Source: an uncultured Acidimicrobiales bacterium (GTDB lineage: Bacteria > Actinomycetota > Acidimicrobiia > Acidimicrobiales > SZUA-35). From it: a stretch of DNA of 64,000 bases. This document shows, one piece after another, positions 720-46,923 of this stretch; within the stretch, counting starts at the first letter, position 1, and the number at the start of each line of letters is the position of its first letter. The stretch is from positions 74,958-138,957 of the forward strand of contig CALAJQ010000009.1 in assembly GCA_937922785.1 (NCBI GenBank), in the 5' to 3' direction. Under the pieces are notes generated by a model. It searched no databases and was not told where the DNA came from. It saw only the letters and a list, made by a program, of their open reading frames with translations. The translations under genes were made by a program, and so were the position numbers.

Positions 720-3548
720 ATGACTGATCTTGCCGTTTCGCGGCCACGGGCAGATCCAAAAAGATCAGCTGGGGCGAAGTCGGCCCGGCCTTCTGCAGCT
801 CGTTCTTCTTCAGAGGCGTCTAAGCAGCCCTTTTTTGAACGCATGTCACCTAGCGCGTGGGTCGGCTTGGCCGCAGCGGTTGCCTGTTCGCTATTTGTTT
901 TTATGCAGATGCGGCCTGACCTGCTGCTTTCAAACAACACGCCAGCCGGCGGAGACATGGGCGCCCACGTTTGGGGTCCTGCGTACATGCGAGACAACCT
1001 TCTTGGCCAAGGACGGCTAATCGGTTGGACCCCAGATTGGTACGCAGGTTTCCCGGCCTACCACTTCTATATGGTGGTGCCGGCCCTGGCCATAATTGCG
1101 GTCAACGCAGGACTGCACCCAATTATTGGTTTACCGCTGGCTGCGCTGGTGCTGATCGCCGGTTGGGTGTTCGCCCAGCGTTACCCCAGCTACAAAGCCC
1201 TTGTGTGGTCAGCGGCGGGCGTGCTGGCTGTTCTCCTTGTTGGGGTACCTTATGGAATTGCGTTCAAGCTCGTAGCGGTTTCGGGCGTAGTCATGTTCCC
1301 GTTAGCGGCTTGGTTTCTTGGCCGGCTGGCTGGTTCGCCTGAGCCTGTGCCTGGCGTTTTAGCGTTTGCTGCGGTCATCTTCTTGTTTGACCCCAACTTC
1401 ACGATCTATGGCGGAAACGTGCCCTCGACCTTGGCTGGGGAGTTCGCTTTCTCGATCAGCCTGTGTTTGGTCCTGGTTGCTTTGGCGCTGGTGTTTCGCG
1501 GAATGGACAATGACCGAGGTCGGGCCGGCGCCGCAGCGGTAATTGCTCTGGTCGCCTTGTGCCACGTAATCCCGCTGATCTTTTCGATCTTTGCTCTAGC
1601 TGTAGTGGTGTTCCTGGGTAAAGACATTCCCCGTTGGTGGACAGCATCGTTTGGCGCAGGGCTTGCGCTGGTTGCGGTTTCAGTAGGCGATCAGTACTCG
1701 ACCAGCATCAAAGTTGCGGCGGTTGCTGCTTTGGTTGCTGTAGCTGCGGCGGGCCTTTATGCGTCTAAGGCGATTCGGCAACGATCGCTTTGGCTAATGG
1801 CGGCAGGCCCATGTGCCGCATTGATCTCTGCCTTTTGGCTAGTGCCGTTCTACCTTCGCCGCGATTATTTCAATGACATGGGTTGGGAACGACTCGACGA
1901 AGTGGGCGACGCCCTACTCACAACCCCCATGCGGATTGCTTTGCCGATCGCCGCAGTCTCTGCAGTGCTGGCTTTTGCCAGCCGGGACCGAGTCGGAATG
2001 CTGTTTAGTGTCATGACAGTGGCCTCGGCCGCCGCAGTTGCGAACCTGGGCCAAGGCAAGCTTTGGAACGCCCGGCTGCTGCCCTTCTTCTATCTCTCGG
2101 TCTATCTGCTGGCTGCTGTTGGATTGGGCCTTGTTGTTCGTTTCGCAGCAATTGCGATCTCTGAGAATTTCGACGCGCCGGATCGTCGTATGACTATCGG
2201 GTCTGTGTCGCTTGGGTTGGCCGCACTTCTTGTGTCACTTTCGGTGCCGCTGCGAAACCTGCCTTTCGCTGAAACAACTGACGAAGGTGCTTACTCAATT
2301 CTTGGGTTTGAAACCGAGGCCAAGAGCTTTGTTCCAAGTTGGGTGGAGTGGAACTTCTCGGGTTATGAGAACAAACGCTCTTACCGGGAGTACTCATCAA
2401 TCGTTACAACGATGGCAGCGGTAGGCGAAGACGACGGATGCGGTCGGGCAATGTGGGAATATGACCGCAGCCTTGACCGCTACGGCACTCCGATGGCCCT
2501 CATGCTGTTGCCACATTGGACAGATGGCTGCATTAGTTCGATGGAGGGTTTGTATTTCGAAAGCTCAGCCTCCACGCCGTTCCATTTCCTAAACCAAAGT
2601 CTCCTTAGTGAGAACCCATCAAGGGCCCAACGAGATCTTCCGTACCGGGGCTTTAACTTGGACGCTGGAATTGCCCAACTCCAAACCACCGGAGTTCGTT
2701 ACTACATGGCCCAAAGCGACACGGCCATTGCTGCGGCCCGTGAACACGAGATGCTCACCGAGGTTGCTGAGTCTCAACCGTTCGTAATCTTCCAAGTGGC
2801 TGGCACCGAACTGGTCCAAGGCCTCAGCGTAGAACCCATCGTGACTACGGGCCCAACCCGTGAACAGATGGGTCCTCTGGCCTCACGGTTTGAAATTGGC
2901 TGGGAGTCTCAGGCAGTTGAGGCTTATAACTCTGCCTCAACCTGGCTGGCGCTTCCCGCCGAAGATGGTCCTGACCAATGGCAGCGCAGAGATGTGATGC
3001 TTGCTAGCGACGGCGTCCAGATTGAGCCAGCAACCGTCACCTCTATTGAGACATCAAACTCCAAGATCAGGTTCTCCGTCGATGAGATCGGCAAGCCAGT
3101 ACTGGTTAAAACTTCTTACTTCCCTAACTGGGGCGCATCAGGAGCTGATGGTCCGTACAGGGTCGGCCCCAACCTGATGGCTGTGGTTCCGACCTCTAGT
3201 GAAGTTGAACTGAGCTATGGCTACACCGGGGTCGAGTACCTTGCCTACTTGCTGACCTTCGCCGGTCTGGCCGGGCTGGCGCTATTGTCCTGGGCCGAGC
3301 GTCGCAAGTCTGACTTTGTGTTTGCTGCGATACCAGGCGAGCCAACTCGAGTTGATCCGACGGCAACCTTGGATCCTCTACAAACTCTTGATCCCGGTCC
3401 TGCTTTGGAAACAATCCCCGAATATCAGTCAGGTCCCCAGTATTCGCCAGACCCCGAGGTCGGCACAGCCGCCGAGGTTGAATCACCGCCAGACCTCACG
3501 CCGCCCGTCGAGCCTCTGTTTCAAGAGTTCCCGCCTGAACAGACCTAA
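720..3548 (+). CDS. large polytopic membrane protein, PTPS-related (GT-C-like)
   Basis: 942-aa protein. A Ser/Arg/Lys-rich N-terminus of about 40 residues precedes a first membrane span (about 45-63). An extracytoplasmic loop follows with GGDMGAH (D79, H83) and WTPDWYAGFPAYHFYMV, a signature of the '6-pyruvoyl-tetrahydropterin synthase-related' membrane family (the name is historical) and reminiscent of the acidic loop-1 motif of GT-C glycosyltransferases. Roughly ten further spans run to about residue 475, then a long extracytoplasmic domain, a last span near 845-865 and a Pro/Glu-rich cytoplasmic tail. It is 12 bp upstream of the GtrA-GT2 gene, so a polyprenyl-phosphate-sugar-dependent transferase acting outside the membrane is a reasonable inference. 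The actual reaction is unknown. Confidence 0.7.
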   Translation: MTDLAVSRPRADPKRSAGAKSARPSAARSSSEASKQPFFERMSPSAWVGLAAAVACSLFVFMQMRPDLLLSNNTPAGGDMGAHVWGPAYMRDNLLGQGRLIGWTPDWYAGFPAYHFYMVVPALAIIAVNAGLHPIIGLPLAALVLIAGWVFAQRYPSYKALVWSAAGVLAVLLVGVPYGIAFKLVAVSGVVMFPLAAWFLGRLAGSPEPVPGVLAFAAVIFLFDPNFTIYGGNVPSTLAGEFAFSISLCLVLVALALVFRGMDNDRGRAGAAAVIALVALCHVIPLIFSIFALAVVVFLGKDIPRWWTASFGAGLALVAVSVGDQYSTSIKVAAVAALVAVAAAGLYASKAIRQRSLWLMAAGPCAALISAFWLVPFYLRRDYFNDMGWERLDEVGDALLTTPMRIALPIAAVSAVLAFASRDRVGMLFSVMTVASAAAVANLGQGKLWNARLLPFFYLSVYLLAAVGLGLVVRFAAIAISENFDAPDRRMTIGSVSLGLAALLVSLSVPLRNLPFAETTDEGAYSILGFETEAKSFVPSWVEWNFSGYENKRSYREYSSIVTTMAAVGEDDGCGRAMWEYDRSLDRYGTPMALMLLPHWTDGCISSMEGLYFESSASTPFHFLNQSLLSENPSRAQRDLPYRGFNLDAGIAQLQTTGVRYYMAQSDTAIAAAREHEMLTEVAESQPFVIFQVAGTELVQGLSVEPIVTTGPTREQMGPLASRFEIGWESQAVEAYNSASTWLALPAEDGPDQWQRRDVMLASDGVQIEPATVTSIETSNSKIRFSVDEIGKPVLVKTSYFPNWGASGADGPYRVGPNLMAVVPTSSEVELSYGYTGVEYLAYLLTFAGLAGLALLSWAERRKSDFVFAAIPGEPTRVDPTATLDPLQTLDPGPALETIPEYQSGPQYSPDPEVGTAAEVESPPDLTPPVEPLFQEFPPEQT

Positions 3549-4748: not shown

Positions 4749-6101
4749 GTGCATGACCTAGATGTAATTGTTAAGGCTTACGACATTCGGGGGACCTATC
4801 CCGACCAGATCGATGCCGAAACCTGTAGAGCTCTTGGTGTTGGGTTTGGTGTCTATATCACCGAGCAAGAACCTGACACCACCGAGATTGTGATCGCTAG
4901 AGACATGCGCCCTTCGGGTCCGGAGCTGGTCGCCGCGTTCGCCGAAGGCGTGATGAGCCGAGGTCTAGACGTTCTGGACGTCGGGATGGCCAGTACAGAC
5001 CTGATCTACTTTGCTTCAGGATCGCTAAACCAACCTGGCGTGATGTTCACCGCGTCTCATAACCCTGCTGGTTACAACGGCATCAAGATGTGTCGGTCCG
5101 GTGCTGCCCCAATCGGCCAAGACACCGGTCTTGATCGCATCAAAGAGGTTGCCAACACCGGTGCAGATGACGCGGCCAAGCTGGGATCGCTAAAAACAGG
5201 CGACATGCTTCAAGGGTTCTCAGACCATGTCCGTAGTTTTGTGGACGTGTCAGAGCTTCGCCCACTAAAGGTTGTTGCCGATACAGCTAACGGCATGGGA
5301 GGTTTGGTGGTGCCGGCGGCTTTTGACGGTCTGCCCTTCGAGCTGGAAATGATGTTCGAAGAGCTGGACGGCACCTTTCCAAACCACCCAGCTGACCCAA
5401 TTCAGGTTGAGAACCTTGCATGGCTTCGCGAGCGAGTGGTCGAAAGCGGCGCCGACATAGGTCTTGCCTTTGACGGCGACGCCGATCGAGTGTTCCTAGT
5501 TGATGAGCTTGGCGAACCGGTAAGTGGTTCTTTGACTACGGCGCTGCTCGCCCGGGCAATGCTTGAAAAGAATCCTGGCGCAACTGTTGTCTACAATTTG
5601 ATCTGCTCCAAGGTTGTGCCAGAGATCGTGGCCGAGCACGGCGGAAAATCGATCCGCTCTCGGGTGGGGCACAGCTTCATAAAGCAGATCATGGCGGACG
5701 AAGACGCAGCCTTCGGCGGCGAGCATTCAGCCCACTACTACTTCGGAAACAACTGGCGGGCCGACTCAGGCCTGATTGCATCGATGATGGTTTTGGGTGA
5801 GTTGTCCAAGTTTGACGGAACCCTAAGCCAGCTGGTGGCGCCATTGCGTCGCTACGGGGCCTCGGGCGAAATTAACACTCGAGTGAGCGACGCAGCAGCG
5901 GTGATAGCTCACGTGGCCGATCACTATTCGGATCGCCAGACCGACACTTTGGACGGGCTAACTGTGGATTCGGGCGATTGGTGGTTCAACCTTCGAGCGT
6001 CAAACACCGAGCCTCTTCTGCGACTCAACCTGGAAGCTGCCGATGACGAGGCTGTGGCTGATCGGGTCGCCGAAGTCCAAGCTCTTATGGCCCAGATTTA
6101 G
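4749..6101 (+). CDS. manB: phosphomannomutase / phosphoglucomutase
   Basis: 450-aa alpha-D-phosphohexomutase interconverting hexose 6- and 1-phosphates, here probably mannose-6-P to mannose-1-P for GDP-mannose. Seen: KAYDIRG at 9-15, active-site serine loop TASHNPAGYNGIK (S103), metal-binding DGDADR at 242-247, sugar-binding GGEHS at 323-327, and the phosphate-binding RASNTEPLLRL near the C-terminus. Length is normal for the family. The start is GTG at 4749; an AGGAG at 4745-4749 overlaps it, which is too close to act as its ribosome-binding site, so translation may depend on coupling with the gene 9 bp upstream. Followed after 8 bp by manA. Confidence 0.92.
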   Translation: MHDLDVIVKAYDIRGTYPDQIDAETCRALGVGFGVYITEQEPDTTEIVIARDMRPSGPELVAAFAEGVMSRGLDVLDVGMASTDLIYFASGSLNQPGVMFTASHNPAGYNGIKMCRSGAAPIGQDTGLDRIKEVANTGADDAAKLGSLKTGDMLQGFSDHVRSFVDVSELRPLKVVADTANGMGGLVVPAAFDGLPFELEMMFEELDGTFPNHPADPIQVENLAWLRERVVESGADIGLAFDGDADRVFLVDELGEPVSGSLTTALLARAMLEKNPGATVVYNLICSKVVPEIVAEHGGKSIRSRVGHSFIKQIMADEDAAFGGEHSAHYYFGNNWRADSGLIASMMVLGELSKFDGTLSQLVAPLRRYGASGEINTRVSDAAAVIAHVADHYSDRQTDTLDGLTVDSGDWWFNLRASNTEPLLRLNLEAADDEAVADRVAEVQALMAQI

Positions 6102-6109
6102 CCAACGTC

Positions 6110-7306
6110 GTGCAACATCTACAAAGCCCGATAAAGGCCAACGCCTGGGGTGACACAGAGTCAATTCCACAATTGCTAGGGCAAGAACCCACTGGGAAGC
6201 CCGCGGCGGAGCTCTGGATGGGTGCCCACCCATCAGACCCGTCGATCGCCGGTGGGGTAGCGCTTAATGAAATAATCGCTGCGGACCCCGAGGCGAACCT
6301 GGGGCCCGAGGTCGCCCGCAGTTTCGGGGAGTTGCCGTTTTTGGCCAAGATACTGGCGGCCGCAAAACCTCTCAGTGTTCAAGCTCATCCAAACCTGAGT
6401 CAGGCCAAAGCTGGTTTCGCCCGTGAAAACGCCGCAGGAATCGCTCTTGATGCCCGAGAACGGACCTATCGCGATCCCAACCACAAGCCTGAGCTGATCT
6501 GCGCTCTAACGCCGTTTGACGCAAAGTGCGGTTTCCGTCGACTCAGTCAGACCCGCGAGCTGTTCGCCGACCTTGGCGGCGATGAACTTTCGCCGCTTCG
6601 AGAAATGCTTGGCAGCTCGGGCCCAGCGAATGAGGTACTGGCAACGACGCTGACATGGTTGCTTGAACTCTCTGCCGAGGCCGCCGGAACACTAAGTCAA
6701 GCGGTGGTGGCCCAAAGCGTGGCCGGGTCTTGGACTGGTGCGTGGTTTGCTCCAGACCTTGGCTGGGTGCCTGAGATAGCCAGTGAGTATCCCGGTGACA
6801 TTGGTTCAGTAGTCACCTTGTTACTCAACCACGTGACCCTTTCGCCTGGCCAAGCACTGTTCCTGGGCGCTGGCAACTTGCACTCGTACCTCAAGGGTGT
6901 TGCGGTTGAGATAATGGCCAACTCGGACAATGTCGTAAGGGGAGGACTGACTCCAAAACACATCGACGTGCCTGAATTGTTGGCTGTAGTGGACACAACC
7001 CCAATCGAGGTGCCCATTCAGATGGCGGGCCCCGGTAGCCATACATTCTCTGCTCCAGTTGCAGACTTTGGGTTAACTCGGGTTGTTCTGGGTGACAGCC
7101 GCTGGGTTGAACCAGACGGTCCGGAAATCGTATTTGCAACCGAAGGTGCGCCGATACTGACTGTTGATAAGACCGCTCAAGAAGTCACACTTGGAAAGGG
7201 CGACGCAGTGTTCGTGCCAGCTTCAGATGGTCCTTACCGGGTAAGCGGACTTGGTGTTTTGTGGAGAGCTACCGCAGGTCAAGCGGAGACTGACTCGACC
7301 GGTTAA
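6110..7306 (+). CDS. manA: mannose-6-phosphate isomerase, type I
   Basis: 398-aa cupin-fold zinc enzyme converting fructose-6-P and mannose-6-P. Zinc and substrate motifs are present: QAHP at 91-94, YRDPNHKPE at 120-128, and a later conserved segment around LGAGNLHSYLKGVAVEIMA with the family's zinc-ligand histidine and the GLTPKH helix. GTG start at 6110, 8 bp after manB; the reading frame has no better start. The C-terminal 90 residues form the second cupin-like lobe. Together with manB it supplies mannose-1-P from the fructose-6-P pool. Confidence 0.92.
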   Translation: MQHLQSPIKANAWGDTESIPQLLGQEPTGKPAAELWMGAHPSDPSIAGGVALNEIIAADPEANLGPEVARSFGELPFLAKILAAAKPLSVQAHPNLSQAKAGFARENAAGIALDARERTYRDPNHKPELICALTPFDAKCGFRRLSQTRELFADLGGDELSPLREMLGSSGPANEVLATTLTWLLELSAEAAGTLSQAVVAQSVAGSWTGAWFAPDLGWVPEIASEYPGDIGSVVTLLLNHVTLSPGQALFLGAGNLHSYLKGVAVEIMANSDNVVRGGLTPKHIDVPELLAVVDTTPIEVPIQMAGPGSHTFSAPVADFGLTRVVLGDSRWVEPDGPEIVFATEGAPILTVDKTAQEVTLGKGDAVFVPASDGPYRVSGLGVLWRATAGQAETDSTG

Positions 7307-7318
7307 CCTGACGGCCCT

Positions 7319-7540
7319 ATGGCGTTAGATCCCAAACTGCTCGAAATCCTGGCCTGCCCTCAAGACCGAGGCTCTCTGCTCTATTTCGAGTCAGAGTCCT
7401 CGCTTTACAACCCTCGGTTGAAGAGGCGTTATCGAATTGAGAATGACATCCCGGTCATGTTGATTGATGAGTCAGAAGGTGTTGATGACTCTGAACATGA
7501 CCGTCTGTTGGCAAAGGCCGAGGCGGACGGCATTTCATAA
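7319..7540 (+). CDS. Trm112-like / YcaR-like protein
   Basis: 73-aa protein opening with LLEILACPQDRGSL, the N-terminal motif of the Trm112 (UPF0434) family, and YRIENDIPVMLIDESE, its conserved central strand with I..IPVML. The first half holds a single CP pair where zinc-binding members have more Cys, so metal binding is doubtful. Trm112 proteins activate methyltransferases in eukaryotes and archaea; bacterial homologues are often found in sugar-nucleotide or manA/pmm clusters without a known role. It overlaps the next gene by 1 bp (TAATG), so the two are translationally coupled. Confidence 0.8.
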   Translation: MALDPKLLEILACPQDRGSLLYFESESSLYNPRLKRRYRIENDIPVMLIDESEGVDDSEHDRLLAKAEADGIS

Positions 7541-8574
7541 TGTCAGAACCACTTGACTCACTAAAAATGTGGGACGCCGTCATGGGTCTGCCTGAACAGA
7601 TGGAAGCAGCAGTTGCTGCTGTGGGTGGCATCGACGGCTTGCCCGACCCCAGCGTCATCGATCACGTGATGATCCTAGGTATGGGAGACTCGGGGTTCGG
7701 TGGTGACGTTGCGGCTGCCAGCGCCCGGCCTTTTTCTCCTGTTCCAATCGTGGTTTACAACGGTTACCTGCCTCCTTCATGGGTTGGGCCCTCCACACTT
7801 GTCATCGCGATCTCCCAAAGCGGTGGCACTGAAGAAACTCTGGAGTCTCTCGAGGCAGCGGTTGAAAGCGGAGCGTCGCTTGTTGCAGTGACAACCGGGG
7901 GAGAGCTTGAAAGCTTGGCCCGCCGAGCGGGTGCTCCTGTTGTGGGAGTGGAGGCCTGTTCAGACATCTCAACTGCGTGTCTGGGGTCAATGAGTGTTCC
8001 CGCGATGCTTACGCTTGAACAACTCGGATTTTTCTCGGGCGCAAGAAGCTGGGTGGCCGATGCCATCGAGCAGCTCAAGATCAGCCGTGATGTCTACAAC
8101 TCGCCATCTAACCCCGCCAAGGAATGGGCCGAGCGGATCGGTTCGACCATTCCCGTTGTTTACGGCGGCGGCGCTACCGGATCAACCGCAGCTAAGCGCT
8201 GGAAAGTTGCTTTGAATCAAAACGCCAAGCGGCCCGCCTTCTGGGCTCCGATGCCAGACCTTTGCCACAACGAGCTGTCAGGCTGGGCTGGGAATCCCGA
8301 GTTCACAAGCGATCTCTTCACCCAACTCCACCTCCGTCATGACAATGAACATCCACAGACCGCTAGGCGGTATGAGTTCATTGCGGAGGCGACCAGCAGC
8401 GCAATGAACGACATCATCTCGGTGGAGGCCGGGGGAGATGGACCCGTCGCACAGCTGTTTGATCTGGTGTTCAGCGCCGACGTTTTGTCGTTGGAACTGG
8501 CTTATGCCGACGGAACAGACCCCGGCCCTCGCCCGATGATTCAGAACATGAAGGACTGGCTAAAAACTCACTAG
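7540..8574 (+). CDS. SIS-domain phosphoglucose/phosphomannose isomerase
   Basis: 344-aa protein with two sugar-isomerase (SIS) halves. ISQSGGTEETLESLEA near residue 90 is the phosphate-binding SIS loop, and the second half carries PAFWAPMPDLCHNELSGW, typical of the bifunctional PGI/PMI C-terminal domain found in archaea and actinobacteria. Such enzymes isomerise glucose-6-P or mannose-6-P to fructose-6-P. In mycobacteria an equivalent gene sits between pmm and manA near ahcY, the same neighbourhood as here. Its presence next to a type I ManA is redundant on paper; it may serve the glucose-6-P branch. Coupled to the Trm112-like gene. Confidence 0.85.
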   Translation: MSEPLDSLKMWDAVMGLPEQMEAAVAAVGGIDGLPDPSVIDHVMILGMGDSGFGGDVAAASARPFSPVPIVVYNGYLPPSWVGPSTLVIAISQSGGTEETLESLEAAVESGASLVAVTTGGELESLARRAGAPVVGVEACSDISTACLGSMSVPAMLTLEQLGFFSGARSWVADAIEQLKISRDVYNSPSNPAKEWAERIGSTIPVVYGGGATGSTAAKRWKVALNQNAKRPAFWAPMPDLCHNELSGWAGNPEFTSDLFTQLHLRHDNEHPQTARRYEFIAEATSSAMNDIISVEAGGDGPVAQLFDLVFSADVLSLELAYADGTDPGPRPMIQNMKDWLKTH

Positions 8575-38526: not shown

Positions 38527-39723
38527 ATGCTCTTGCTTGGGGCCTGCACCGATGGCCAGGCCGCGTCAACTTCGGTTGCACCAACTGAGCAGCTCACAAC
38601 CACGGTGGCTCCGACAACTTCAGAATCAACAACAACGACCGAGCCCACAACAACAACGACGGCCGACCCAATCTTGGTTCAACTGGATGAGTTGTCGGAT
38701 CAGGAGAAGATCGGGCAGTTGTTGATGCCAGTAGTTGCCGGAACTTCGGCATTGGGAGTAACTACCGAACAAGGCCAATTCAACGTGGCATTGGCCGGGT
38801 TTGAGACTCCGGTTGAAATCGTTGAGGCCTTCCACCTTGGCGGCATCATGTTTCTTGGTCCCAATGTAGAGAGCCCGGAACAAGTCCGGCTGTTCGCCGA
38901 GCAGCTAAACGAATCGGTGCACGCCCGTGGAGGGATTCCGTTGCTGATCTCTGCAGATCAGGAAGGCGGCCGAGTGCGCCGGATTCGGGGTGAGGGGGTA
39001 ACCGTGGTGGACTCGGCCCGATCCTTTTCCGGTGACGTTGAGGCCATACAGCAGGCGGGTCGTATCACTGCCGAAGAGCTTGGGGCTTTGGGGATCAACA
39101 TGATCCTGGCTCCGGTGGCTGATGTCGTCAGCGGAAACGCCGGAGTAATCGGTGACCGATCTTACTCAGATGACCCACTCGTGGTGGCCCAGGCAGCAGC
39201 GGCATCCTCGGTTGGAATTCAAAGTGGCGGCGGCCTTTCAGTGGTTAAGCACTGGCCTGGTCACGGCGACACTTCGGTGGACTCTCACAAGTCGCTGCCG
39301 GAGATCTTGGCCAGCCCTGAGCTTTGGCGAGAGCGAGACGCAAGTCCATTTGCAGCAGTTTTTGAATCCGGCGTCGACGCTGTGATGGTTGGTCACTTGG
39401 CGTTTCCTCAGCTGGACCCATCAGGTCGCCCAGCCACAGTGTCACCGGTGCTTGTTAACGATCTGCTCAGAGAGTCCTACGGTTTCGAAGGCGTGGTGAT
39501 GACAGATGCGATGGACATGGGGGCCGTCTCAGATTACGAGCGCGGTGAACTTGCCGTCTTAGCGATTGAGGCTGGCATCGACATTTTGCTGGTGCCGCCT
39601 GATCTGATCGCAGCCCATGATGCGCTGACAGCAGCGGTAGAGAGCGGCAGGATCTCAGCCGAGCGACTCGATGCATCGGTTGAACGGATCTTGCGAGCGA
39701 AAGCGGCTCTGAACGAACGCTAG
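38527..39723 (+). CDS. beta-N-acetylhexosaminidase-like lipoprotein, GH3
   Basis: 398 residues from ATG 38527. Lipobox LLGAC at once, a Thr/Ser-rich linker (about 15-45), then a GH3 domain: ISADQEGGRVRRI, KHWPGHGDTSVDSHKSLPEI (the NagZ His/Asp loop) and GVVMTDAMDMGAV with the nucleophile Asp. Such enzymes trim N-acetylglucosamine from peptidoglycan fragments. The ATG leaves only six residues before the Cys; the same frame is open upstream to 38455 and encodes a proper hydrophobic core (SALVIGFLMLLLGAC), but contains no ATG, GTG or TTG. The true start may be a rare codon such as ATC 38464 or ATT 38515. Confidence 0.85.
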   Translation: MLLLGACTDGQAASTSVAPTEQLTTTVAPTTSESTTTTEPTTTTTADPILVQLDELSDQEKIGQLLMPVVAGTSALGVTTEQGQFNVALAGFETPVEIVEAFHLGGIMFLGPNVESPEQVRLFAEQLNESVHARGGIPLLISADQEGGRVRRIRGEGVTVVDSARSFSGDVEAIQQAGRITAEELGALGINMILAPVADVVSGNAGVIGDRSYSDDPLVVAQAAAASSVGIQSGGGLSVVKHWPGHGDTSVDSHKSLPEILASPELWRERDASPFAAVFESGVDAVMVGHLAFPQLDPSGRPATVSPVLVNDLLRESYGFEGVVMTDAMDMGAVSDYERGELAVLAIEAGIDILLVPPDLIAAHDALTAAVESGRISAERLDASVERILRAKAALNER

Positions 39724-39736
39724 GCATGGTGCCCAG

Positions 39737-40468
39737 CTAGGCGTTTTCATACACCGGCGCCGCAGTCACCACGTAGTTTGACTCGTACCGACCGAGGTTG
39801 CGATTGAACTCTCCACCGCAGGTGATCAGATGAAGAGCTGGGGCACCGCTTTGCCTGAACAGCTCGGCCGAGGGCAGCGTGTCACGGCTGAAGTCCGTTC
39901 CGCGTATGGTCCTGTAGTTCGCGACCGAGCCATCAGAGAGGTGCACTTCGATTGCGGACCCGCCCTCAAGTTCGGTCAGGTCCCAAAAGACGCCTTCGGC
40001 TCCACCCAGGTCGACATGGCCAGCAAGTACCGTCGCCCCGGCTTCGCCCGGTGTTGAACCGAACTTGTACCACCCGGCTTCTGTACGACCTGGTACGGCA
40101 ACGGTAGATTCGCCTGCGTTGGTGCTGTCGGCGCCCGAGGTGTCTGGCTCGAGGCCCACTGCCTCGATCTTGGCGTCAACACCAATTGATGCAATGACAA
40201 GCCTGACCGGATATGGCGCGTGGACCGTTTCGAGCGGATCTGATGGCCGAACGTCGACGTCGCGGGCTGAGGACACAACACTGGCTTGCACCCGAGTGGA
40301 TGGCTCGAGCTGCTCGAGGTCTTCACGCAGTGCATAGCCGCTCTCGCCTTGGCTGTTCGACCAGAGAAGCTGAGGCGCTATCAGCGCAGACATCCCGATG
40401 GTGCCGATGCAAAGGCCACCCACAAGCGCAGCCAAGTAGATGGCTAAGGAGTTCTTCGTCTCTGCCAC
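39737..40468 (-). CDS. class F sortase
   Basis: 243-aa membrane-anchored transpeptidase. One N-terminal span (about 8-32) and a linker precede the sortase barrel: VRLVIASIGVDAKIEAVGL, TVLAGHVDLG with the catalytic His, LHLITCGGEF with the catalytic Cys, and GRYESNYVVTA with the Arg. Length and the short N-terminal anchor fit actinobacterial class F, which attach LPxTG-like proteins to the wall. Its start lies inside the 3' end of the upstream 666-aa surface protein gene (25-bp overlap), so it is translationally coupled to its probable substrate. Confidence 0.92.
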   Translation of the reverse strand: MAETKNSLAIYLAALVGGLCIGTIGMSALIAPQLLWSNSQGESGYALREDLEQLEPSTRVQASVVSSARDVDVRPSDPLETVHAPYPVRLVIASIGVDAKIEAVGLEPDTSGADSTNAGESTVAVPGRTEAGWYKFGSTPGEAGATVLAGHVDLGGAEGVFWDLTELEGGSAIEVHLSDGSVANYRTIRGTDFSRDTLPSAELFRQSGAPALHLITCGGEFNRNLGRYESNYVVTAAPVYENA

Positions 40469-42444
40469 GTTGCTCCAGCTACGCCGCTAAGGGTGATTAG
40501 CCCAACAAGTATCAAGGCGATCCCTAACGTGGAGATAGCCGACACATCCTTTAAGCCGCTATCGCCAGTTGGTACTTCGCCCGGAGCAGTGTCTAGCCCA
40601 TCGAATCTCTGCACGATCGCAACTACCTCGCCATCAGAGCCCGTTGCTGCAGAAACAGTTGTAGAGCTTCCTTCTGAGGCGTCGACGCTGGCAGCAAGAA
40701 CTTCGTTGCCGTCAGCATCTAGCAGCACCACGTCGTGCTGGCCCGCGCTTAGCTCAACCTCGATATCTTCACCGTTGCTAATAGGGGATCCCGCAGGCTC
40801 TCCGTCGATCAATACTTGAACGGGACCGGCCGCTGCGATGTGGCGCAGGCTGAGTCTTGATTTTCCGGCGGGAACCGGGAGTCGATTGTCTGCGAAAGCG
40901 CTGATAGTCGGCTGGCCGTCGGCATCCAAGTGGGCCGACACTGAAGTGGCCTGGTCAGCAGTGAGATCAAGGTCAGATGTCAGCGCTGGCTCATCGTCTC
41001 GGTCTTCGGCATTGGCTGGAGGATCGTCCACCGCGGCAAAGACTTGAACTTCTTGATTGCCCGCCATTAGTTCCACCGGACCGGCGATGGTTTCAGGGGC
41101 GAAACCGCCAACCAATAGTTGGCCGTTTGAATAGACATCGAAACTGGCATCAGGAATGCCGTGCACAAGTTCCACCGGAGACTCTCCAACATCAATTGCA
41201 GGTGCTTCGGTTGTTGTTGGAGCCTCTGTCGTGGCAGGTGCTTCGGTTGTTGTAGGTGCTTCGGTTGTTGTTGGAGCCTCTGTCGTGGCAGGTGCTTCGG
41301 TTGTTGTTGGAGCCTCTGTCGTGGCAGGTGCTTCGGTTGTTGTAGGTGCTTCGGTTGTTGTTGGAGCCTCTGTCGTGGCAGGTGCTTCGCTAGTTGTGGG
41401 CGCTTCGGTTGTTGCCGAGGCAGAGCTTGTTGTGGTCTGGGCGCCATCGTCATTGTCATCGCCCGAGCCGATTAGAAGTGCGCCGGCAACCACAAGCGCA
41501 CCGACTCCCAGAATCCCAATCAGTGCACCCCAGCCTGCTCTTTTGTCTGACAGCTCTTCCTGGGCTGCGGCTGACCATTTCGGTTCTACCACCGGTTGTG
41601 CGTCGGGCACGATCGCTACGCCCGCAGGATCAGGCGCAGGCTTGGAGTCAGTCAGGTCGATGAAGGTGTCGTCAGAAAAGAGCCCGACCGAAACCGGAAG
41701 TCCGGCTGGCACGCCACTCATGGCAGAGGCCCCGAAATCCGCCAGGTCATAACTGGTCATGGTCGGCCCTGCTGCTGCGGCCAACTCTCGTGAGAACTCT
41801 GCAGCGGTTCGGTGGCGCTGCATGTAATCAGGGTCAGTGGCCTTAGCTACCACCGCTCCTAGGGCTGCTGGGCTGGCGCCCTTGGCCGAGGCTAAGGAGC
41901 GCTCAAGCAGCTTGCCGAGGGAGTAGACGTCGGAGCGAACGCCGGGAGTCTCACCAGCCAAGACTTCAGGTGCTACCCAGTCGGCGAGGTCTTCGTTGGC
42001 CGCGCCACCGCGCCCGAGACCCATGCCGCCGACAGCAACTGTTTCTGAGATGATCGAGACCGACTGGGGCGAGATTCCGCCGTGCCGAAGGCCAAGAAGG
42101 TGGCCCTTGTCTACCGCTTTGGAGGTTGCCGCAACTAGCCCTGCAGCATCTTCCCACTTGAGGTTGCGACTCATCGCTAGGCGCTGGCGCAGTGTTGGGC
42201 TGAAGGTCTGGAGCTGTGCCAGCTGGAGGTGGCCCTGATCAATGTCGGCGCTAAGTGTTGGCACCAAACCGTCGACCTCTGTGGTCTTCAGGAGTCTTTC
42301 GACGTGTCGCTCATCCCAAGTTATGGGAGCCTTTACAACCTCTACTGGGTAGGCCCCAAGAGTAGAAGAGAATCGGTCGTACCCAAACCAATCTTCCATC
42401 GGCTTCTGATCTGAGAATGTGTTGGTGTCGCCGTTGCCCGCCAA
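40444..42444 (-). CDS. pseudokinase - TM - Thr/Pro stalk - DUF4397 - sorting-signal protein
   Basis: 666 aa. Residues 20-225: protein-kinase-like fold with subdomain VIII APE (158-160), DVYSLG (172-177) and an R-rich end, but the catalytic loop is HGGISPQSV (121-129, no Asp) and the DFG site reads GGMGLG (139-144), so a pseudokinase. Span about 304-326. Residues 346-416: TTEAP-type repeats. Residues about 424-610: DUF4397-like beta domains (VELVHGIPDASFDVYSNG). C-terminus: VPTG at 624-627, a span about 636-658, then RRR, the layout of a cell-wall sorting signal. TTG start at 42444 after ggagg, spacing 8. Overlaps the class F sortase gene. Predicted to span the membrane and be wall-linked. Confidence 0.8.
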   Translation of the reverse strand: MAGNGDTNTFSDQKPMEDWFGYDRFSSTLGAYPVEVVKAPITWDERHVERLLKTTEVDGLVPTLSADIDQGHLQLAQLQTFSPTLRQRLAMSRNLKWEDAAGLVAATSKAVDKGHLLGLRHGGISPQSVSIISETVAVGGMGLGRGGAANEDLADWVAPEVLAGETPGVRSDVYSLGKLLERSLASAKGASPAALGAVVAKATDPDYMQRHRTAAEFSRELAAAAGPTMTSYDLADFGASAMSGVPAGLPVSVGLFSDDTFIDLTDSKPAPDPAGVAIVPDAQPVVEPKWSAAAQEELSDKRAGWGALIGILGVGALVVAGALLIGSGDDNDDGAQTTTSSASATTEAPTTSEAPATTEAPTTTEAPTTTEAPATTEAPTTTEAPATTEAPTTTEAPTTTEAPATTEAPTTTEAPAIDVGESPVELVHGIPDASFDVYSNGQLLVGGFAPETIAGPVELMAGNQEVQVFAAVDDPPANAEDRDDEPALTSDLDLTADQATSVSAHLDADGQPTISAFADNRLPVPAGKSRLSLRHIAAAGPVQVLIDGEPAGSPISNGEDIEVELSAGQHDVVLLDADGNEVLAASVDASEGSSTTVSAATGSDGEVVAIVQRFDGLDTAPGEVPTGDSGLKDVSAISTLGIALILVGLITLSGVAGATWQRRRTP
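41197..41409 (-). repeat. 15-bp tandem repeats coding a Thr/Glu/Ala/Pro stalk
   Basis: About fourteen 15-base units encode TTEAP variants (APTTTE/APATTE). Units with gcctctgtcgtggca and ggtgcttcggttgtt alternate in a higher-order pattern, so recent expansion and length variation between strains are likely. Inside the pseudokinase/DUF4397 gene. Confidence 0.9.
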
Positions 42445-42552
42445 GGCTGCTTCCTCCGCAGTCGAGTGTGCAAAACCTATCTAACTTTGAGGCGAATTAC
42501 CCGACAAGCTGTAACACCGACAAGCTGGAACGCAACTATCTCCTAACGCACA

Positions 42553-46041: not shown

Positions 46042-46923
46042 ATGAATGCCGTCGAAGTTGCGCCCGGATTAGCAATCTTTCCGAGATCGGAATGGGCAGC
46101 CAAGCCGCCGACTGGACCACTGGAAAGCGAAGCATTGGAAGATGTGCGCTTTTTGCTGGTGCATCACACGGCATCTTCCAACGACTACGGCATCGACAGC
46201 GTGGCCCAAACGCTGCGAGGCTTCTATGACTTCCACACTGGAGCGGAGAAACAGTGGCCAGACATTGCTTACAACTTCCTGGTTGACCGCTTCGGCCGAG
46301 TCTTTGAAGCACGGCAGGGGAGTATTGAATCTCCTATTAAAGGAAGCGCGACCGGCGGCAGCCAAGGTTTTGGGATGTTGTGTTCGTTTGTGGGCAATCA
46401 CGCCGAACAGCCACCAAGCCCAGAAGCAGCCAAAGCCATGGGGAATCTGCTGGGTTGGCTGGCGGCGAAGTACAGCATCGACATAGCCGAAGGCGTTAGC
46501 ACCGAGTTCGCTTCAAGAGGATCGAATCGCTGGCCTGCGGGCACAACGGTTACTGCCCGAACCATCTCGGGTCACCGTGAGATGAGCCAAACCACTTGCC
46601 CTGGTGATTTTGGCTTCGCTGCAATCGACTCCGAAATCGCGCCGAGGGCCCGAGCATTTCTTGCCGAGCTTCAGCCCCCAGAAACCACTACAACCGAACC
46701 TCCCGAGACCACAACCACTGCACTGGATTCGACCCCGACCACAACAAGCAGCACAACCAGCGCTGAGGTTGCGGCCGACACATCCAGCACAACATCTGGC
46801 GGTTCCAGTCAGGAAGTCACGGTGGAGGCAGAACCGAGTGCGATTCCGACCAGCTGGTTGTTGCCAGCAGCTGCGATGGCCGCGGTAGCTGGGGCGATCG
46901 GTATCCGGCGACGCCGAATCTGA
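46042..46923 (+). CDS. peptidoglycan-recognition amidase with C-terminal membrane anchor
   Basis: 293-aa N-acetylmuramoyl-L-alanine amidase of the amidase_2/PGRP fold. IFPRSEWAAKPP opens the fold, LLVHHTASSND holds the first zinc His, DIAYNFLVDRFGRVFEARQG the Tyr and substrate strand, and ISGHREMSQTTCPG the second His and Cys. Residues about 212-260 are Thr/Ser/Glu-rich linker; 267-288 a span followed by RRRR. No N-terminal signal peptide is present: an in-frame TAG at 46036 rules out extension. How the domain reaches the wall is therefore unclear. Confidence 0.85.
   Translation: MNAVEVAPGLAIFPRSEWAAKPPTGPLESEALEDVRFLLVHHTASSNDYGIDSVAQTLRGFYDFHTGAEKQWPDIAYNFLVDRFGRVFEARQGSIESPIKGSATGGSQGFGMLCSFVGNHAEQPPSPEAAKAMGNLLGWLAAKYSIDIAEGVSTEFASRGSNRWPAGTTVTARTISGHREMSQTTCPGDFGFAAIDSEIAPRARAFLAELQPPETTTTEPPETTTTALDSTPTTTSSTTSAEVAADTSSTTSGGSSQEVTVEAEPSAIPTSWLLPAAAMAAVAGAIGIRRRRI

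Follow-up and report, generated by a model that had tools for sequence, protein, structure and literature searches.

A pseudokinase with a DUF4397 ectodomain and a C-terminal sorting signal is encoded beside a class F-type sortase in a family of Acidimicrobiales

Sortase substrates usually carry a cleaved signal peptide. The locus studied here raises the question of whether a sortase substrate may instead retain a kinase-like domain in the cytoplasm, so that one polypeptide chain would reach from the cell interior to the wall. It lies in a window of 64,000 nucleotides from an uncultured Acidimicrobiales bacterium (contig CALAJQ010000009.1, positions 74,958 to 138,957); coordinates below are those of the window, and all features are on the minus strand. 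A protein of 666 aa is encoded from a TTG start (40444..42444), and a GGAGG resembling a ribosome-binding site can be read from the sequence 8 nt ahead of the TTG (42453..42457). The gene of a class F-type sortase of 243 aa with an N-terminal hydrophobic stretch (39737..40468) overlaps the 3' end of the 666-aa gene by 25 bp, an overlap already given by a sequence-only reading of this DNA and borne out by the coordinates of the open reading frames. In the pairs of 27 relatives the overlap was exactly 4 bp in 20, and the others lay anywhere between an overlap of 56 bp and a gap of 45 bp. No promoter-like site was found between 39600 and 42800 (0.8 expected by chance), and the single terminator-like site in the same interval lies inside the gene (2.8 expected by chance).

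The sequence-only reading had ordered the protein as kinase fold, membrane span, stalk, ectodomain, VPTG motif, second span and RRR tail, and each of these parts could be located. It had further proposed a search for the same domain order near class F sortases. The loci of 30 relatives were read and three genes cut by contig ends were dropped; together with the window and the diverged locus L153, the remaining 27 relatives gave 29 complete genes, and the order recurred in all of them. A chance or artefactual frame is ruled out by this recurrence of frame and domain order.

A conserved kinase fold stripped of its catalytic residues

The pseudokinase domain occupies residues ~17-228 (41761..42396), as delimited by a PDB profile, a predicted model and an alignment with PknA. 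Standard family models recognize it poorly: the 666-aa protein matched Pfam Pkinase below threshold (E 0.16) and an NCBIfam PknB-type model below cut-off (E 3.3e-6), and of 27 aligned copies only 10 matched PF00069 at E 0.01, a set that does not include the fragment of the window. A 27-row profile compared with the PDB retrieved PknB-type kinases at E 1.3e-13 (Staphylococcus aureus and mycobacterial PknB structures). The AlphaFold2 model, for which the alignment input consisted of 15 homologues from MAGs, was two-lobed (pLDDT 80.6, pTM 0.83). Its best Foldseek match had an E of 6.7e-9, with TM-scores of 0.5-0.65, and VIA-align superposed it on PknA with Z 20.3 and rmsd 3.0 over 214 residues. 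Structure prediction, to which the sequence-only reading had exposed its claim of a kinase fold, thus returned a kinase.

At the place of HRD the protein reads HGG (residues 121-123; 42076..42084), and at the place of DFG it reads GMG (residues 140-142; 42019..42027). In the 31-copy alignment, the first site has H and G in 31/31 copies each, followed by A, S or G, and the second has Gly142 in 31/31; the Asp of HRD and the Asp of DFG are each present in 0/31. Also invariant are H121, APE, D172 (Asp172) and R210 (Arg210), and the stretch of the beta-3 Lys holds no Lys conserved across the aligned copies. From Gly142 to APE there are 15 residues in the 666-aa protein versus 25 in PknB, the latter counted by eye on the profile alignment, and the activation segment is ~10 residues shorter than that of PknB. 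Two further and more diverged copies, G005 and G015, were compared by eye; they have HGA and likewise lack DFG. Since both Asp residues are missing we refer to the domain as a pseudokinase, and since they are missing throughout the aligned copies, lost catalysis characterizes the family as a whole; profile, model and alignment together agree with the earlier description of a kinase fold without the catalytic-loop Asp and the DFG Asp. An active Ser/Thr kinase is ruled out by the same two residues.

The pseudokinase domain is under purifying selection. Its dN/dS was 0.017-0.191 in 12 pairs, three of them drawn from the same three close loci, and these ratios are rough because the dS of the kinase part exceeded 1 in 8/12 pairs. 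Among the 11 usable pairs (the L051/L057 ectodomain value was discarded, L057 being cut at a contig end), dN/dS was lower in the pseudokinase than in the ectodomain in 9. Identity was highest in the pseudokinase, of the three parts compared, in 8/11 pairs, by which a degenerating domain is ruled out. Immediately after the kinase fold, column counts delimit a conserved segment (residues 230-241; 41722..41757), in which position 232 is Y or F and position 234 is P or L in 31/31 copies. This segment is a possible docking or phosphorylation site, and the first place to look for one.

The pseudokinase was found in 33 of the 39 genomes of the window's taxonomic family, the six genomes without a match being G003, G008, G011, G013, G017 and G025. 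Close homologues of residues 1-330, with an E of at most 1e-23, occurred in 31 of 99 genomes, the window's included, all belonging to this family; weaker matches elsewhere are presumably ordinary kinases. With six or fewer candidates scored per genome, 395 genomes of the class yielded nothing outside the family closer than E 1.2e-22, and 396 genomes of the phylum yielded at E 1e-22 only the window and one other match (5.1e-23), which we tentatively take for an ordinary kinase. A wider distribution beyond the family was therefore not found within these class and phylum searches. Beside other class F-type sortases there were no kinase-like genes in 36 loci, of which three places are counted twice and 30 are covered by only ~1.5 kb of flank. 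No gene besides these two recurred in more than 17 of 31 loci (flanks of ~5 kb or less; the neighbour clusters include antisense frames, with gene names assigned by eye), so that the neighbourhood points to no partner. L050 alone has a kinase-like frame (E 2.8e-7) on the downstream side of its fusion gene, ~4.5 kb away.

Membrane spans, ectodomain and sorting signal

A membrane span follows the pseudokinase in 31/31 copies, at a distance bridged by a predicted cytoplasmic linker of 30-289 aa. In the 666-aa protein, hydropathy places this first span at residues 307-325 (41470..41526) and a second one at residues 634-652 (40489..40545). With the span picked by hydropathy alone, ignoring charge, Lys and Arg were in excess before the first span compared with after it in 30/31 copies (12 residues on each side; means 2.6 and 0.3); L058, in which a different Ala-rich stretch scores equally well, is the one exception. 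There being more Lys and Arg ahead of the first span, the N-terminus should lie inside. The cytoplasmic N-terminus and two spans of the sequence-only reading thus gain support from the charge rule and from hydropathy. The usual cleavable signal peptide was not found, and a domain of ~230 aa precedes the first span.

Outside the predicted first span, a Thr/Glu/Ala/Pro-rich stretch (residues 326-417; 41194..41469) corresponds by sequence to the TTEAP-type stalk described earlier. In the 28 complete copies the stalk measures 50-212 aa and the distance from span to sorting motif 252-417 aa. It is followed by a DUF4397 domain (residues 424-544; 40813..41175), which matched PF14344 with E 8.6e-18 and 65.5 bits against a cut-off of 30.6, and by a second Ig-like beta domain (residues ~528-614; 40603..40863), placed from model blocks with pLDDT 85-97. 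The latter falls below the DUF4397 model and matched BiPBP_C below cut-off. To speak of DUF4397-like domains in the plural, as the sequence-only reading did, was therefore slightly generous: one unit is a DUF4397 domain by Pfam, the second Ig-like domain is not. The ectodomain model has 15 strands in blocks with pLDDT 78-97, which we read as two Ig-like domains. Among solved folds, those of PepT1 and PepT2 came nearest with their extracellular domains, at Foldseek E values of 6.4e-7 to 1e-5 and TM-scores of 0.3-0.5 of the query.

The C-terminus carries a VPTG sorting motif (residues 624-627; 40564..40575), placed by the family alignment, ahead of the second span and an RRR tail read from the sequence (residues 662-664; 40453..40461), which confirms the signal as first described. 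At the motif place, [VI]P[TS]G occurred in 26 of 28 copies versus 1.1% in composition-matched shuffles; the two deviating motifs were VDSG and IPAG. The motif of L035 is VPTG. Conservation of the distance to the last span had been suggested as a check, and this distance was 10-15 residues in the 28 complete copies. At least two Lys or Arg lay within the last 14 residues in 28/28 copies, and motif, span and basic tail closed the protein in 29/29 complete genes, so that homologues lacking them, which would have spoken against the earlier reading, were not among these genes.

In all 29 complete genes a class F-type sortase directly follows; that of L058 is cut by a contig end. The class F family NF033748 (NCBIfam) was the best family for the window's sortase (E 8.8e-36), although its 122.9 bits are below the curated cut-off of 166, and was matched by 26/26 sortase members. 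His151 and Cys217 are invariant and Arg226 is present in at least 90% of 26 rows; we take these three to be the catalytic residues. The window's genome contains two sortases at E 0.001. A signal profile built from 28 rows, the window's protein among them, matched only the 666-aa protein in that genome (E 1.5e-17; next 0.31). Being the sole match, the adjacent protein is likely the main substrate of the sortase, in a search that would miss a substrate with a different signal; no second such signal spoke for a sortase that partners other proteins only, the counter-case raised with the sequence-only reading. The window's sortase is itself divergent, with an end branch of 1.9 and thus a long branch of unsure place on the tree; by path its nearest row is L188 (secreted-type, 2.96), followed by L049 (fusion-type, 3.0). 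This divergence counts against a cognate, wall-anchoring pair.

The earlier reading had named DUF4397 proteins beside class F sortases as a known pairing, and this pairing does occur in the class. Of 17 further class F-type sortase loci (L156-L172; chosen loci, with DUF4397-type called by our profile), 11 had a DUF4397-type protein directly upstream, two of them in the window's family, and in several others the protein was of a different kind but also had an xTG-like end. Many more class F-type sortases in the class likewise have partners with xTG motif, span and basic tail. Among 20 more DUF4397 regions in the family, 16 encode a secreted DUF4397 protein together with a sortase of its own, L186 supplies the part that the fusion gene of G010 was lacking, and L187, L191 and L194 are without a clean pair. 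The secreted pairs of Acidimicrobiia resemble the fusion in having the same ectodomain (profile matches down to E 1.8e-63), a C-terminal xTG signal and the sortase directly downstream. They differ in that a signal peptide stands in place of pseudokinase and signal anchor, and in that the genes are mostly 5-93 bp apart, compared with the 4-bp overlap of the fusion.

Position 2 of the motif was Pro in 30/31 fusion substrates (two of which are C-terminal fragments) versus 0/18 secreted paralogues of the family, all 18 of which had N, D, H or Q. Secreted forms outside the family (n = 9) had Pro in 5 and Asn in 4, hence the contrast holds inside the family only. It is as expected of cognate substrate-sortase pairs. 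On the sortase tree, fusion and secreted substrates were split by one change (shuffled mean 19.6) with modest support (81/46); on the ectodomain tree, fused and secreted forms were also one change apart and fell on two sides of one branch (SH-aLRT 100), and the window's ectodomain was nearest to the fusion types. Fused and secreted forms thus co-exist in the family as separate substrate-sortase pairs with differing motifs. In the simplest history, duplication of a secreted substrate along with its sortase was followed by a swap of the signal peptide for a pseudokinase with a signal anchor, and the specificities then diverged, the direction of change presumably being from secreted to fused.

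A proposed role at the meeting place of wall and membrane

The account that we favour, and hold to be somewhat probable from sequence, is a two-gene system in which the sortase would process the membrane-spanning pseudokinase into a peptidoglycan-tied, membrane-held scaffold. The N-terminal pseudokinase would remain cytoplasmic, held by the signal-anchor span, and a flexible stalk with two Ig-like domains would stand outside. The class F-type sortase would cleave within [VI]P[TS]G, where the analogy with LPXTG makes the bond between T/S and G the most likely one, and would attach the C-terminus so exposed to a precursor of peptidoglycan. One end of the product would then be tied to the wall, and its other end to the membrane. 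We infer this cleavage site, a covalent link to the wall in a protein that keeps its first span, and the following output: the non-catalytic kinase fold would provide a docking scaffold that a true Ser/Thr kinase pathway probably phosphorylates or reads, as with MviN, and the protein would mark or monitor the place where wall and membrane meet. Counting against this explanation are the two deviating motifs and the six family genomes without the gene, as well as the neighbourhood without a partner and the usual signal-peptide layout of sortase substrates.

The sequence-only reading had gone further and suggested a sensor of wall tension or integrity. Such a protein would be a covalent trans-envelope strut: as wall and membrane separate or stretch, the span would be pulled and the cytoplasmic scaffold altered, a direct readout of wall state. 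We regard this as possible but doubtful, and as less probable than the scaffold, because a stalk so long and variable suggests slack, which speaks for position marking as much as for force sensing. If it were true, the strut would be a kind of bacterial receptor undescribed in the open-access literature surveyed, and class F sortases would gain a signalling role.

It seems unlikely that the protein is a two-span membrane protein free of the wall, with a sortase that acts elsewhere or only trims the tail. The two deviating motifs and the divergent sortase of the window would suit such a protein, but the sortase adjoins every complete gene, the motif lies 10-15 residues ahead of the last span, motif type tracks sortase lineage, and the signal profile matches no other protein of the genome.

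Less likely again is a signal-peptide-like cleavage of the first span, or a secreted short form made from an internal start, either of which would part a wall-anchored ectodomain from the pseudokinase. An A-x-A near the end of the first span was found in 11/31 fusions, the window included, as against 23/27 secreted proteins under the same rule (24/27 with a wider stretch), and no first span begins before residue 289. Of the 31 genes, 6 have an in-frame start close to the span that is accompanied by an SD-like stretch, but internal starts lack conservation and in the window none is so accompanied. Most improbable, in our judgement, is that the sortase links the protein to some other surface protein or sets it free, with cleavage, through loss of the second span, serving as a signal and leaving no lasting strut: overlapping genes for substrate and enzyme would suit coupled processing, and the physiological roles of class F sortases are called unknown in passages of PMC13251363, but related secreted DUF4397 proteins have a plain wall-anchored layout and no sign of a regulated step was found.

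The same passages report that deletion of all four class F sortases of Actinoplanes missouriensis left the phenotype unchanged (PMC13251363), so that class F systems can be dispensable. With the scaffold that we favour, class F sortases would gain a concrete substrate and role, and the secreted and pseudokinase-fused ectodomains, each with its own sortase and motif, would offer a natural within-genome comparison.

Comparison with known systems

Among the titles and abstract openings listed from the open-access literature, we found neither a pseudokinase as a sortase substrate nor a precedent for a sortase substrate that keeps a cytoplasmic domain; the name DUF4397 occurs there in three papers. 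The closest functional counterpart is the MviN (MurJ) pseudokinase of the ActPs3 family in Mycobacterium tuberculosis, which, according to passages of PMC12599244, is a phosphorylation target of PknB that recruits FhaA and holds back peptidoglycan synthesis. As described there, it shares with the present domain its actinobacterial origin, the loss of all catalytic motifs, a shortened activation loop and a span after the kinase domain; those passages mention no sortase (PMC12599244). Unlike MviN, the present protein has no flippase fusion and carries a DUF4397 ectodomain and a sorting signal instead; the two clear MurJ open frames of the window's genome are only 565 and 533 aa long. Kinship with MviN at family level may or may not lie behind the shared features: no MviN entry was recognised among the 50 structural matches listed, which does not speak against it.

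By sequence profile, PknB/StkP-type PASTA kinases are the closest relatives, and by fold they rank among the closest; they have the same succession of cytoplasmic kinase fold, span and extracellular beta domains. Unlike them, the present protein lacks catalytic residues and PASTA domains, and ends in a sorting signal served by its own sortase. MapZ of Streptococcus pneumoniae likewise combines a cytoplasmic, phospho-regulated part, one span and a wall-facing outer part; it has no kinase fold and binds the wall non-covalently, as do the known Gram-positive wall-sensing proteins such as the PASTA kinases. By the account that we favour, the conserved gene pair described here should instead encode a covalent link from peptidoglycan to a cytoplasmic signalling fold.

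Variation among relatives

In the diverged copy of the pseudokinase fusion gene from genome G015 (L153, positions 5243-8323, plus strand), the linker between the pseudokinase and the membrane span is long and made of acidic repeats, for example DLPDADLDID. At locus L187, from genome G013, a DUF4397 frame and a class F-type sortase frame overlap by approximately 77 bp; the final 50 residues shown of this DUF4397 frame contain no motif of the usual type, and no pseudokinase match was found in genome G013.

Further sortase and DUF4397 genes in the same genome

The genome from which the window derives encodes a second sortase of 412 aa on contig C3 (L111, positions 1054-2292, plus strand), with additional hydrophobic segments C-terminal to the sortase domain. 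On contig C12, a 619-aa protein (L065, positions 6501-8360, minus strand) combines three DUF4397 stretches with two DUF4214 stretches; a sorting signal was not found at its end, nor was a sortase frame found within the surrounding 15-kb locus.

Other genes in the window

Convergent with the window sortase gene lies a gene for a Glycoside hydrolase family 3 protein (38527-39723, plus strand), which has a lipobox-like start (LGAC). A frame resembling it occupies the equivalent position at L036, L050, L052 and L061; with the window, this makes 5 of the 31 pseudokinase-fusion neighbourhoods compared. The window further encodes an Amidase_2 protein (46042-46923, plus strand) with an anchor-like C-terminus, in which IPTS is followed by a hydrophobic span and RRRR. 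This C-terminus resembles an anchor signal of a different type.
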